A DNA stretch of 64,000 bases, taken from Pontibacter sp. E15-1. Its GTDB lineage: Bacteria > Bacteroidota > Bacteroidia > Cytophagales > Hymenobacteraceae. Where the stretch lies: NCBI RefSeq assembly GCF_022601975.1, contig NZ_JAKVIR010000031.1:1-64000 (forward strand), given 5' to 3'. The notes beneath the pieces were generated by a model that saw only the letters and a list, made by a program, of their open reading frames with translations, had not been told where the DNA came from and did not search any database. Below are positions 26,021 to 29,851 of this stretch, one piece after another (the stretch's first letter is position 1; each line of letters starts with the position of its first letter). The position numbers and the translations under genes were made by a program.

Positions 26021-27400
26021 TTATTCCGTTTCTGAATCTGAGTACGTGGCCTGTCCTGCCGTTTTTTCCTCTTTTTTGCCCGTTGATTTTCCGTTGGTAT
26101 AGTCAGGCGGGAAACCGTTGAGCTGGCGCCAGATCTCATACCAGATCGGCACGGTGTTCAGCATGGCCCAGCCGTACACCCCCGAGCCAACCCGCAACGC
26201 CTCGGGCCAGGGGGCAGCGTCAGGGTCGGGCACCACCAGCATGCGGTATTTGCCGTCGGTGCCGGAGTTGTCAATTACGGCTACCTTGCCGCCAAACGTG
26301 CCGAAGCTAGCCCCCGGCCACCCCGAGAACACCAGCGTAGGCCATCCCTCGAACTGCAATCGTACCGGGTCGCCTTGCTTGATCAGGGGCAGATCCAGGG
26401 CGTTAATGTATAGCTCTGCGGCCAGGTCCGGGTTCTCGGGCATGATGGTGGCCAGTGCCTCGCCTTCTTTTATCGTTTCGCCTATACCTGCTTTCAGCGT
26501 CTTGACCAGGTAGCCGTCCTGTGGTGCCAGAATCTGGTAATACTGGCTCCGGACCTGCGTGCTGCTGTACTCGTTCTGGAGCTTGGCCACATCGGCCTGC
26601 GTGCCATAAATGTAGGAGCGTGTGGCACTCAGCTCTGCCTCGGCTTTTGCTATTTTGTCGCCGTATTCGGCTTGCAGCGAGTTGAGTTCGGTTCGCGCGT
26701 TCTGAAGCTCTGCCTGCGCGGCCTCGTATTTATTGATGATGGACACCAGCTTTGCCTGCGCCTCCTGTAGCTTCAGCCGGCGCTGCTCCAACTCTGTCAG
26801 CGACTTCAGGCCCTGGTCGTAAAGGCTTTCCTGGCGCTTAAACTGCGACTCCGCAATGGCCAGTTCCATGCGCTGGGCAACCACATCCATGCTGTCGCTC
26901 TGCAGTTTCAGGCGCGACTGCTCTACTTTGTTCCGGCCCTTCTGCAGGCTGAATACCAGGCCTTCGCGGAGTGCCTTTATTTGTGCCTGCATGGCCTTTT
27001 CTTTGGCTTCTGTAGCCTCCACAGCCCCCTTTTTCGCATCCACCTGCTCGCCCAGCCGCGTCAGCAGGTTCGGGTCCATATACTTCTCTTTGATCTCGGT
27101 AATACTGGCAATGGTGTCGCCTTGTCGCACAAAGGTGCCTTCCATCACATGCCACTTCGCTATCCGGCCGGCAATGGTGCTCTCTATTGTCTGGGGCCGG
27201 TCCTGGGGCGTGAGCGCTGTCAGGATGCCCAGCGACCGGATATTCTGTGTCCAGGGGAGGAACAGGGAAAGAAACAGGAGCAGGAAGATGCCCCCGATCC
27301 AGTAGGCAAGGGCGCGCCCTAAATGCGGGGTCTGCACCTCCGACATCACATCGAGGTGTGTTTGGCCCGTTTGCCCGGATATGGTAGGTTTTATAGCCAT
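26021..27400 (-). CDS. HlyD-family periplasmic adaptor
   Basis: 459 aa. One N-terminal membrane anchor (about 33-50: YWIGGIFLLLFLSLFLPW). The biotinyl-lipoyl half-motif IAGRIAKWHVMEGTFVRQGD follows at about 90. A long coiled-coil hairpin covers ~130-285, and the second lipoyl half is at LAPQDGYLVKTLKAGIGETI. C-terminal beta-barrel domain. This protein should link the ABC membrane protein to the TolC channel. Co-transcribed: it starts 3 bp after the ABC gene stop. Confidence 0.92.
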   Translation of the reverse strand: MAIKPTISGQTGQTHLDVMSEVQTPHLGRALAYWIGGIFLLLFLSLFLPWTQNIRSLGILTALTPQDRPQTIESTIAGRIAKWHVMEGTFVRQGDTIASITEIKEKYMDPNLLTRLGEQVDAKKGAVEATEAKEKAMQAQIKALREGLVFSLQKGRNKVEQSRLKLQSDSMDVVAQRMELAIAESQFKRQESLYDQGLKSLTELEQRRLKLQEAQAKLVSIINKYEAAQAELQNARTELNSLQAEYGDKIAKAEAELSATRSYIYGTQADVAKLQNEYSSTQVRSQYYQILAPQDGYLVKTLKAGIGETIKEGEALATIMPENPDLAAELYINALDLPLIKQGDPVRLQFEGWPTLVFSGWPGASFGTFGGKVAVIDNSGTDGKYRMLVVPDPDAAPWPEALRVGSGVYGWAMLNTVPIWYEIWRQLNGFPPDYTNGKSTGKKEEKTAGQATYSDSETE

Positions 27401-27403
27401 AGG

Positions 27404-29143
27404 TCAGGCGGTAACATCCGTTAAGTCGTGTAAAATATCAAGTTGCTTGATCTCGTCGTAGCTGCCGTAGGCAACCATGTGGCCATCCTGGAGCAGGAGG
27501 GTTTTATGGCACAGCTGCATCACATCGCGGTCGTTAGACACAATGATCATGGTCCAGTCGAACTGTGGGCTGGTGAGCATCTGCAGAAAGTCCATCTTGT
27601 CTTTTTGGGCCATGCCTGCCCAGTAGTTGTCTATGATCAGGAGCTTGGGGCGTTGCACCAGGCTGCGGGCCATCACGATCTTCCGGGCCACACTGCCCGG
27701 CAGGCGCATGCTGCCGCCGGTCAGGTAAGCATGCAGGCCGTCGGGCAGGGTGTCCACAAACTTCCCGAGGCCGGTCAGCTCAATCGCCCACAGGATGTCT
27801 TTCATCTGCAGGTCGCGGCCCAGGGTGATGTTCTCCAGCAGCGTGCCGTCAAACACCTGCTCTTTCGAGATATTGTCCCCGGTCAGGCTGCGGAGGTTGC
27901 CTTTGTGCAGGTCGTGCAGCGAAATGCCGTTGAAGGACAGGCCGCCCTCATACGAGGGGAACAAGCCAAGCAGAATACTGATGAAGGTGCTTTTGCCGGA
28001 GCTGTTGAAGCCCGCCAGGCACATGTGCTCCGACGGCTGCAGCGTGAAGTTGAGGCCACTGAGGGCGACCTTCTTCGTGTCGCGGAAATGGTAGCTCAGG
28101 TTTCGGGCCTGAATGCTCAGGCCGCCTTCCATCGGCAGGTCGTCTAGTTTAATGCCCTTCGCCTCCTCTGTCGGGAGGTCTGTTACCTCGCCAATCTTGT
28201 CAAGGCTCGTCATGACGTCATATATCGCATCCAGCTTGATAATGATCTTCTCTACCGCTGTCATGATCAGGATGATGATGATCTCGGAGGCAACAAACTG
28301 CCCGATGTTGATCTCGCCCTGCACCACCAGCACACAGCCCAGCACCAGCAAGCCGCCGGTGATAAAGGTCTTGAAGCCCACAAAGCTGAAGTACTGCGTC
28401 ATCAGAACCTTAAAGTGCTCCCGGCGCACATCCAGGTAGCTTTTTACATAGAAGTTGGTGCGCTCCATGGGCAGGTCGGTATGGCCAACGAGTTTAAACG
28501 TGCTCAGCGAGCGGGCCATCTCCTGTAGCCAGGCCACCAGTTTATACTTGTATTTCGATTCCTGGATGCTGGTTTCGATGCCCTTTTTGGCGGTGGCCCA
28601 GATGATAAGCGTGAGTACCAGCATCAGGAAAAGGCCAAAAAAGATAAAGTAGGGGTGGTAAAACGAAAGCAGGATAAGCCCGAACACGATCTGGATCACG
28701 GCCGTCGAGAAGTCCACCAGAATCTTCGCGACCCCTTTCTGCAGCACCACCACGTCAAAAAAGCGGTTCATCAGTTCCGGGGGGTAGTACTTCAGCAAGG
28801 CCTCAGACTGGAAGCGCGGCACGCGGTAGGCAAACTCAGAGGCGGTGCGCGCAAAAATGCGCTGCTGGATAAACTCGACCAGCCATAGCTGCATCACCTG
28901 CAAGCCCCCCACGATCAGGAGGGCCAGCACGATCAGGCTTATCAGCACCACGATAGACACCGTGATCTGCCCACTCGACACAAAGCCGATGATACTCTGT
29001 ATGCCCAAAGGCAGTATCAAGCTGATGAGACCGGCAGCAATGGCATACACATACATGTACATGATCTCCCGCCGCTCGATAGCGAGCAGCTGCAGGAAAC
29101 GCTGCATCGGTGTGAATTTCTTTTCTGTGTTCAGGTTATCCAT
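27404..29143 (-). CDS. ABC exporter (TM + ATPase half-transporter) with degenerate ATPase site
   Basis: 579 aa. Six-TM ABC type-1 exporter domain (~25-310) followed by an ATPase domain (~340-575). No C39 peptidase domain. Walker A is present (GFNSSGKST at 378-386). The other motifs are abnormal: the signature is LPGSV (481-485) instead of LSGGQ; Walker B is LLIID-N (D505, N506) with the catalytic glutamate replaced by Asn; the H-loop histidine position is Asn in VSND (N537); and the usual Q-loop glutamine is missing in the segment around 422-432. I confirmed the Walker B and H-loop residues from the nucleotides. It may bind ATP but hydrolyse poorly, or pair with another subunit. It forms an operon with tetR, hlyD and tolC. 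Confidence 0.9.
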   Translation of the reverse strand: MDNLNTEKKFTPMQRFLQLLAIERREIMYMYVYAIAAGLISLILPLGIQSIIGFVSSGQITVSIVVLISLIVLALLIVGGLQVMQLWLVEFIQQRIFARTASEFAYRVPRFQSEALLKYYPPELMNRFFDVVVLQKGVAKILVDFSTAVIQIVFGLILLSFYHPYFIFFGLFLMLVLTLIIWATAKKGIETSIQESKYKYKLVAWLQEMARSLSTFKLVGHTDLPMERTNFYVKSYLDVRREHFKVLMTQYFSFVGFKTFITGGLLVLGCVLVVQGEINIGQFVASEIIIILIMTAVEKIIIKLDAIYDVMTSLDKIGEVTDLPTEEAKGIKLDDLPMEGGLSIQARNLSYHFRDTKKVALSGLNFTLQPSEHMCLAGFNSSGKSTFISILLGLFPSYEGGLSFNGISLHDLHKGNLRSLTGDNISKEQVFDGTLLENITLGRDLQMKDILWAIELTGLGKFVDTLPDGLHAYLTGGSMRLPGSVARKIVMARSLVQRPKLLIIDNYWAGMAQKDKMDFLQMLTSPQFDWTMIIVSNDRDVMQLCHKTLLLQDGHMVAYGSYDEIKQLDILHDLTDVTA

Positions 29144-29176: not shown

Positions 29177-29851
29177 TTATTTAATAGAAGCAAACACCAT
29201 CTGCTTCAGGAAGTTTACAGTTTCTGTATACTGCTCCGCCGCAACATCGGTCAGGGAGGGCAGGTGCTGGGCAAAAAAGAGCTGCTGGTGTGCCGCCTCC
29301 AGCGTGGTGCTGATGAGCGCATGCGGATACGGGTAGCCGGGGTTGATCTCCAGCACGATCAGGGCCAGGTAATGGCAGAACCGCTTCAGCTCCAGGAAAA
29401 AGCCTTCTTTGTTCTCGGAGTCCACTTCTTTGGTATGGTATACCTTCGACGACTCTGCCACAATCACGCGGTGCAGGATGCGCTCGTCTATGTGCGCCAC
29501 CGAGGGGTCATCGGCCTGTCCGGCGCGCGCCACCACCTCGATGGCACGGTTCAGGCGGTCGGTAGGGCTGGGCAGGTTCTGCAGCTGAAACGTGACGGTA
29601 TAGTGCAGCCAGGCCCAGTACCACGACACCAGGTATACCAGCAGCTTGTGCTTGTTCTCGAAATACCGGTAAACAGACGCCTCCGTGGAGCCGATCTCGG
29701 CGGCTAGCTTCTTGAACGTGAACTGCTCAAAGCCCAGCGCATCGATCAAGCGGATGCTTTCGGCGATGATTTTCCGCCCCAGGGTGGTGCTCTCCGGCTC
29801 CCGCAGGTATGACTTATGGTCGAGGCTGATTTTTACGCTTGCTGATAACAT
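29177..29851 (-). CDS. TetR-family transcriptional regulator
   Basis: 224 aa from the ATG at 29851 (MLSASVKISLD). An upstream in-frame ATG at 29995 adds 48 residues without family resemblance. N-terminal helix-turn-helix at about 22-65: IIAESIRLIDALGFEQFTFKKLAAEIGST then SVYRYFENKHKLL, the classic TetR pattern. The C-terminal ~150 residues are the ligand/dimer domain. It lies 33 bp upstream of the ABC gene on the same strand, so it probably regulates its own exporter operon. Ligand unknown. Confidence 0.92.
   Translation of the reverse strand: MLSASVKISLDHKSYLREPESTTLGRKIIAESIRLIDALGFEQFTFKKLAAEIGSTEASVYRYFENKHKLLVYLVSWYWAWLHYTVTFQLQNLPSPTDRLNRAIEVVARAGQADDPSVAHIDERILHRVIVAESSKVYHTKEVDSENKEGFFLELKRFCHYLALIVLEINPGYPYPHALISTTLEAAHQQLFFAQHLPSLTDVAAEQYTETVNFLKQMVFASIK

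Follow-up and report, generated by a model that had tools for sequence, protein, structure and literature searches.

A 64,000-nucleotide stretch of contig NZ_JAKVIR010000031.1 from Pontibacter sp. E15-1 (hereafter, the window) carries a gene for a half-transporter of the ATP-binding cassette (ABC) exporter type, followed by genes for a HlyD-type periplasmic adaptor and a TolC-type outer-membrane channel. Throughout the family of this half-transporter, the nucleotide-binding domain (NBD) has, at the level of aligned sequences, lost its hydrolysis machinery, and one clade of relatives consists of the transmembrane domain (TMD) with no NBD. The independence of this clade from an ATPase of its own is strongly supported by its genes. 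The reading that we favour, with about an even chance of being right, is that these operons encode a tripartite exporter in which the translocator has ceased to depend on an ATPase of its own and is probably powered by ions, as are SbmA (PMC13316013) and the engineered LmrA-MD (PMC2704374).

Catalytic losses and the missing nucleotide-binding domain

We scored four catalytic elements (Q-loop Gln, LSGGQ, Walker B Asp-Glu, and H-loop His) in a set of NBD-bearing relatives (202 proteins, of which 184 are distinct). The window protein has none of the four and keeps Walker A; translation and alignment confirmed the residues named in an earlier, sequence-only reading of this gene (LPGSV, Asn506, Asn537, and no Q-loop Gln, the position being held by Ser426). 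None of the elements is present in 166 of the 184 proteins, one is present in 18, and two or more in none. The Walker A Lys is found in 180 proteins, the Q-loop Gln in 8, and an LSGGQ-like motif in none; the H-loop column holds Asn in 113 proteins and His in 9, and Asp occupies the Walker B Glu position in 117. In the same columns of 30 canonical exporters from these genomes, the Walker A Lys, Q-loop Gln, LSGG, Walker B Asp, and H-loop His are each present in 30 of 30, counts that are circular for Walker A and LSGG, by which the canonical set was chosen, but not for the other three. In the Walker B Glu column, 21 of the canonical exporters have Glu and 9 have Asp. The possibility that homologues keep the normal Glu and His, which the sequence-only reading had named as telling against it, is not borne out.

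The features of the operon and of the half-transporter are as follows:

27404-29143, minus strand: ABC-exporter half-transporter, TMD plus degenerate NBD; 579 aa, ATG start (open reading frame [ORF] and Pfam)
29177-29851, minus strand: TetR-family regulator, operon gene 1; Pfam TetR_N, 35.2 bits; start placed by homology
26021-27400, minus strand: HlyD-type periplasmic adaptor, 459 aa; Pfam HlyD_3, 47.8 bits
24579-26012, minus strand: TolC-type outer-membrane channel (OEP), 477 aa; Pfam OEP, 130.6 bits
28154-29119, minus strand: TMD, residues 9-330, with elbow helix, six transmembrane (TM) helices, and two coupling helices; this is where the family is conserved
28475-28513, minus strand: coupling helix 2 region, residues 211-223; in NBD-less relatives, no TMD segment is less conserved
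28283-28285, minus strand: Glu287 in TM6, near-invariant carboxylate (alignment)
28250-28252, minus strand: Glu298 in TM6, near-invariant carboxylate, with Lys299 next to it (alignment)
27434-28141, minus strand: degenerate NBD, residues 335-570 (Pfam, alignment, and model)
27986-28012, minus strand: Walker A GFNSSGKST, residues 378-386, retained
27866-27868, minus strand: Ser426 at the Q-loop Gln position
27689-27703, minus strand: LPGSV, residues 481-485, replacing LSGGQ
27626-27631, minus strand: Asp505-Asn506 at Walker B, the catalytic Glu replaced
27533-27535, minus strand: Asn537 at the H-loop His position

The four genes follow one another on the minus strand in the order TetR, ABC, HlyD, OEP/TolC, with gaps of 33, 3, and 8 bases. 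Pfam matches agree with the complete tetR-abc-hlyD-tolC operon described from sequence, except that the TetR start is probably at about residue 49 (the ORF extends to 29995, and the relatives listed align from about residue 50). The half-transporter itself matches ABC_membrane (residues 29-296; 50.8 bits, cut-off 28) and ABC_tran (residues 361-506; 47.9 bits, cut-off 25). The adaptor scores 77.1 bits against the NCBIfam model type_I_hlyD, which is under the cut-off. A strongly conserved C-terminal WYEIWRQLNGFPP-like motif is present in the HlyD adaptors (window 26021-27400 and the aligned relatives listed).

Relatives of the half-transporter occur in 128 of 150 genomes of the window's bacterial family (E ≤ 1e-60), and a member is present in 97 of the 395 genomes sampled from the phylum (E ≤ 1e-70); the 61 named loci come from Pontibacter, Hymenobacter, Cyclobacteriaceae, Saprospiraceae, Flavobacteriaceae, and Carboxylicivirga, among others. 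This spread, with catalytic losses throughout, upholds the earlier suggestion of a distinct non-canonical subfamily. Around the NBD-bearing genes (58 of the 61 named loci, those of 8 kb or less being dropped, plus the window), HlyD lies directly downstream in 58 of 59 loci, TolC is present in 58 of 59, and a TetR-like gene is near in 45 of 59. Both the losses and the operon recur in homologues.

Individual members vary. Many from Cytophagales have a poorly conserved N-terminal extension of about 150 aa before the TMD (L084:6542-6991, L062:6557-7018, and L239:1045-1509, among others). A peptidase-like domain was considered for this extension and gained no support: four scanned proteins gave no Pfam match there, and no PDB profile match fell below E 0.94. 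Walker A is destroyed as well in L132:5267-6481 (G003), whose longest frame begins within the TMD, and in L093:6914-8614. In L318 (G616:C99:41000-55000), the gene is split into a TMD frame of 498 aa and a separate NBD frame of 236 aa, followed by HlyD and TolC. The gene may have broken recently close to where TMD and NBD meet, or the split may be a sequencing error. In L131, the NBD is truncated or frame-shifted. L131 and L132 were omitted from one set of relatives, and L075, L093, and L286 from alignment A3; another set comprised 122 distinct proteins from 131 loci.

Searches in three bacterial families (the window's own, f1; f3, of the same order; and f4, of the same class) gave TMD-only matches in 120 of 501 genomes (123 matches). 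They comprise 32 of 150 genomes in f1 (matches within residues 10-341 at most; frames of 337-409 codons), 50 of 150 in f3 (52 matches; frames of 334-424), and 38 of 201 in f4 (39 matches), G616 with its split gene and G822 and G827 (contig ends or short frame) being excluded. We retrieved 65 of these loci (32 of 32, 19 of 52, and 14 of 39, respectively), and the remaining matches are classified only by how far the match extends and how long the frame is. Each of the 65 has the order TMD, HlyD, TolC, with the three genes adjacent and on the same strand. No fourth gene is common to the 65 loci among same-strand ORFs of at least 110 aa from 6 kb upstream to 9 kb downstream; the other wide ORF clusters are antisense to the operon or, by position, overlap TolC. 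Of the 19 f3 loci, 11 have a divergently oriented TetR gene upstream; none was found at the other retrieved loci. ABC_membrane was the only credible Pfam match of six NBD-less proteins, above the cut-off in five and at 26.4 versus 28 in L319, and no other Pfam family exceeded its cut-off in the nine NBD-less proteins scanned.

No other NBD is encoded in 23 of the 32 f1 loci (stretches of 16.8-19 kb) or in 31 of the 33 f3 and f4 loci (about 14 kb); a canonical-type NBD lies within the retrieved stretch in 9 of 32 and 2 of 33, respectively. No stand-alone NBD of the family was seen in the 62 of 120 NBD-less genomes searched, a search that a very diverged one might escape. The window NBD (residues 332-579) gave listed matches of 20-28 per cent identity in the 32 f1 genomes, almost all in frames as long as those of ordinary exporters. 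The NBD of an f3 relative gave 59 matches (E ≤ 1e-20) of 23-31 per cent identity in 30 of the 88 f3 and f4 genomes, in frames of 585-1011 aa, and one of these is the NBD-bearing family gene of G602. As read from the genes, the NBD is dispensable for whatever selection maintains in this clade.

At nine f1 loci (L169, L171, L175, L179, L183-L185, L189, and L190), a canonical ABC exporter of 608-636 aa lies 6.1-6.9 kb downstream on the same strand, and between it and the NBD-less operon, after TolC, are a symporter-like gene (by eye) and a small gene. We considered this exporter as a partner and set it aside: it is linked in only 9 of 32 loci, and clusters of the nine share other fixed neighbours too, which looks like shared synteny. 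Several copies are present in G664 and G875, and both forms in G602 and G570. G602 (L315, L316, and L334) and G875 (L323 and L324) each have two NBD-less operons, and G602 has an NBD-bearing one as well; these are natural paralogues in which function could be compared.

In a TMD tree (203 proteins, 133 rows at 85 per cent identity, where L318 and L333 bear a TMD-only label but are kept out of the NBD-less count), a single clade holds the NBD-less proteins (38 rows, support 100) and adjoins NBD-bearing f3 proteins. In a tree rooted with 10 canonical exporters, the clade (16 rows, support 100/100) is nested among NBD-bearing f3 proteins, with a support of 96/88 with five of these and 100/99 with all 13. 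The rooted tree was built from random subsets (16 NBD-less, 34 other NBD-bearing, and 10 of 30 canonical proteins) and left out seven rows (L318, L333, and five on long branches). A tree holding all NBD-bearing rows together is not rejected (approximately unbiased test; P = 0.476), and the outgroup branch is very long. A single, nested NBD loss is the better-fitting order on these trees and is not proven. Because canonical exporters carry an NBD, its absence is a loss under either root. Identity among the NBD-less proteins reaches down to 45 per cent to the first member (alignment A4), and the truncation is therefore not recent.

Fold and constraint of the translocator

In ancestry, the window protein belongs to the type IV ABC exporters, close to those of peptides and of type I secretion. 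It combines a six-helix ABC_membrane domain, with elbow and coupling helices, and an NBD fold with Walker A, as in the type IV superfamily, and its translocator, HlyD-type adaptor, and TolC-type channel are encoded together, as in tripartite exporters; a co-encoded partner half-transporter with an intact NBD, as in degenerate-site heterodimers, is absent at the locus. An AlphaFold2 model from 88 family sequences (pLDDT 89.7) predicts a complete type IV exporter fold. The Foldseek matches listed for it include PCAT1 (8voz_A; TM-score 0.88, 3.1 Å), HlyB (8dck_A; TM-score 0.87), TM287/288, and TAP. The model of an NBD-less relative (L306; pLDDT 83.7) has an elbow, six TM helices, and two short coupling helices, and its top VIA match is TmrAB (6rai_B; Z 26.9, 2.6 Å, 322 residues), with HlyB at Z 26.7; SbmA is absent among the 50 VIA matches listed, which says nothing on distance. 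In a PDB profile search, three hits at E 0.21-0.35 fell on the chain of an unrelated toxin and were dismissed as chance. The window protein is under the cut-off of every NCBIfam model among the best 25 of 143 matched, including the best, TIGR03375 type_I_sec_LssB (157.7 bits versus 693.1), and the other type I secretion models TIGR01842 (126.1 versus 510.15) and TIGR01846 (111 versus 725.55).

Conservation is inverted compared to ordinary exporters: it is the TMD, not the NBD, that is conserved. Mean identity among NBD-bearing members is 51 per cent in the TMD versus 35 per cent in the NBD (TMD higher in 2980 of 3000 sampled pairs), whereas among canonical exporters it is 28 versus 51 per cent (TMD higher in 19 of 435 pairs). 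Median Ka/Ks is 0.052 for the TMD and 0.089 for the NBD in 12 proteins (the window's and close relatives) and 0.117 in 7 NBD-less proteins; the values are rough, as Ks medians of 1.0-1.6 are near saturation and 2 of 66 TMD and 16 of 66 NBD pairs (Pontibacter-like) were unusable. From the low NBD value, it follows that even a dead NBD is kept by selection in the window's lineage.

The TMD residues that are conserved above 90 per cent in both classes, and mostly differ in the 30 canonical exporters, are E90, N126, K136, K140, Y162, H163, E195, S196, K199, Y200, R240, H243, E287, K299, and D309. R127 and D130 (and in part E123, Y236, and K316) are conserved too, but canonical exporters share them or have like residues. 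Hydrophobic stretches of TM6 surround E287 and E298. The Glu287 column holds E in 97 per cent and D in 2 per cent of the 184 NBD-bearing proteins and E in 100 per cent of 65 TMD-only members; the Glu298 column holds E in 183 of 184 and in 57 of 64 TMD-only members (6 D, 1 N). Canonical exporters have mostly A, I, or L at 287, and T, N, G, and A are commonest at 298. One NBD-less frame of 293 aa was omitted from the Glu298 and coupling helix counts.

Coupling helix 2 is the most conserved TMD segment in canonical exporters (mean per-column identity 0.41 versus 0.29 overall) and the least conserved in NBD-less members (0.29 versus 0.63 overall). A foreign NBD docked on the TMD should keep this helix constrained; its relaxation, as seen in the alignment, speaks against a partner NBD in the NBD-less clade. 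The stretch between fixed anchors is 32 or 33 residues long in 60 of 64 NBD-less proteins (31, 35, 37, and 44 in the others), and, because length hardly differs, we place weight on the conservation of the helix and not on its length.

Energy source and rival explanations

In the mechanism that we favour, the window protein contributes no competent ATP site, as its sequence shows. The NBD-less clade dispenses with the domain altogether, and its TMD, HlyD, and TolC genes are kept together under purifying selection. A TMD dimer would switch between inward and outward states and push substrate into the HlyD-TolC duct; the TMD is probably still a translocator coupled to HlyD and TolC, since conservation extends to both the type IV fold and the adaptor. 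An ion gradient would drive the switch, with protonation of Glu287 and Glu298 and a neighbouring charged network replacing ATP hydrolysis. We infer a gradient from the analogy with Glu314 of LmrA-MD and with SbmA, and from TM6 carboxylates at positions where canonical exporters are mostly uncharged; by analogy, the proton motive force would be the driver. In NBD-bearing members, an NBD with Walker A only would be a non-catalytic relic or a regulator that may still bind nucleotide. TetR control prompts the guess that the substrate is a small toxic or lipid-like molecule. A wider claim, for which we would put the chances somewhat short of even, is that the phylum holds a series from ATP-driven to ion-driven export, beginning with the hydrolysis-dead NBDs found in most lineages and going on to complete loss of the domain in one clade (down to about 45 per cent identity, in three bacterial families), with the TM6 carboxylates as the new coupling site.

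Several points weigh against ion-driven export. Both coupling helices are still predicted, unlike in SbmA, and coupling helix 1 is not relaxed (0.57 versus 0.63 overall in NBD-less members; 0.35 versus 0.52 overall in NBD-bearing ones). In NBD-bearing members, too, coupling helix 2 falls short of the overall figure (0.42 versus 0.52), so its relaxation began in part before the NBD was lost. Most of the conserved charged residues map to cytoplasmic helix extensions, where they could serve structure or HlyD contact instead of the coupling of ions. Because the Walker A Lys is so widely kept (180 of 184), nucleotide binding probably still matters in NBD-bearing members. Glu287 and Glu298 may not be equivalent to LmrA Glu314 or to the SbmA glutamates, and export needs antiport or a driven duct, which the symport of LmrA-MD does not show. 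We found no experiment on the family in the open full-text PMC literature.

The NBD-less clade, which lay beyond the view of the sequence-only reading, bears on the choice between a second ATPase and another driving force. Catalysis could be supplied in trans by a canonical half-transporter or a stand-alone ATPase encoded elsewhere, much as the good subunit acts in degenerate-site heterodimers. Many other ABC proteins are at hand (22 further matches in the window's own genome, E ≤ 0.001), the canonical exporter stands 6.1-6.9 kb downstream on the same strand at 9 of the 32 f1 NBD-less loci, and coupling helix 1 is not relaxed. Such a partner is nonetheless unlikely. No second ABC gene is linked to the NBD-bearing operons (another NBD lies in 3 of the 58 named loci over 8 kb, and none elsewhere within the 64-kb window), most NBD-less loci lack another NBD (23 of 32 and 31 of 33) and share no fourth gene, and coupling helix 2, where a partner NBD would be expected to dock, is the least conserved TMD segment in NBD-less members. 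Alternatively, the TMD dimer may not pump at all and may, with no energy coupling, anchor and seal the HlyD-TolC duct or pass substrate down its gradient. HlyD is conserved alongside the TMD in both classes, and the charged network that NBD-less members conserve sits for the most part in the bundle of cytoplasmic helices, where a gate would have it. We find this scaffold or gate improbable, given that a mere anchor would hardly keep two carboxylates and a lysine inside a hydrophobic TM6 or preserve the type IV translocator fold in full (322 residues matched to TmrAB, Z 26.9).

A further possibility, that NBD-bearing members hydrolyse ATP by means of some other set of catalytic residues, is very improbable. 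Their substitutions differ from one protein to another, sequence change is faster in the NBD than in the TMD, and one clade manages without the domain. In favour of this possibility are the Walker A Lys, kept in 180 of 184 proteins, the Asp that 117 of the 184 (and 9 of 30 canonical exporters) have in place of the Walker B Glu, and purifying selection on the NBD (median Ka/Ks 0.089). Decay or an assembly error in the window copy is hardly tenable. A few relatives do show real or apparent breakage (the split L318 and the truncated or frame-shifted NBD of L131), but the window copy has an intact reading frame and low Ka/Ks in both domains, and the same losses recur in its 184 relatives across the phylum, a family pattern that refutes decay for this copy and bears out the earlier judgement that decay was unlikely. 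Of these explanations, ion-driven export by a translocator independent of its own ATPase is the one that we carry forward.

ABC-based tripartite systems are taken as ATP-driven, and here is a common family with a dead-looking ATPase, and one clade without it, in an otherwise intact machine. An annotation as an ATP-driven ABC transporter would mislead for the window's family. Its members are natural material bearing on the claim that the ABC TMD can act as a secondary transporter, a role so far represented by the engineered LmrA-MD and by importers of the SbmA type, and their gradation lets one ask how primary pumps turn into secondary ones. If the ion-driven reading is true, the family would be an ABC-type tripartite pump without ATP use, and secondary transport would have arisen from the ABC fold independently for a second time, SbmA/BacA being the first case.

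Comparison with known systems

The window protein resembles PCAT1, HlyB, PrtD, and LssB-type exporters in its TMD-NBD fold and in its HlyD and TolC partners, whereas its family differs from them by lost catalytic residues, by a TMD that is more conserved than the NBD, and by NBD-less members. With the heterodimers TmrAB, TM287/288, and TAP it shares the fold and degenerate catalytic residues. Such heterodimers retain one good site and a partner subunit, whereas here no second ABC gene is common to the loci.

SbmA, according to PMC13316013, is a type IV TMD that has no NBD, is driven by protons, and has a glutamate ladder; the same paper presents the SLiPTs (SbmA/BacA) as importers that have shed the coupling helices, have acquired TM0 helices, and go back to an ancestor of YddA. 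The NBD-less relatives are likewise type IV ABC TMDs without an NBD and with conserved glutamates (E90, E123, E195, E287, and E298, which may or may not correspond to the SbmA ladder positions). The window protein differs in having an NBD, albeit degenerate, the absence of the domain being met only in its NBD-less relatives; both models here predict coupling helices and no extra TM0 helices, and the operon is of exporter type. The window family is not a SLiPT, but it may still work like one.

LmrA-MD, an engineered LmrA without its NBD, is an ethidium-proton symporter in which Glu314 of TM6 is needed for the dependence on a pH gradient, according to PMC2704374. The likeness lies in a homodimeric TMD without an NBD and in a TM6 carboxylate; LmrA-MD is man-made and stands alone, whereas the NBD-less relatives are natural, old, widespread, and placed in a tripartite operon. 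We found no account of the family, or of an NBD-less ABC tripartite system, in the open full-text PMC literature. PMC8277102 divides tripartite transporters into ABC, resistance-nodulation-division (RND), and major facilitator superfamily (MFS) classes and describes the MFS system EmrAB-TolC as an inner-membrane pump driven by the proton motive force and coupled to an adaptor and TolC. In EmrAB-TolC and other ion-driven tripartite pumps, the inner-membrane part is an MFS or RND protein, whereas in the window's family it is the TMD of an ABC exporter.

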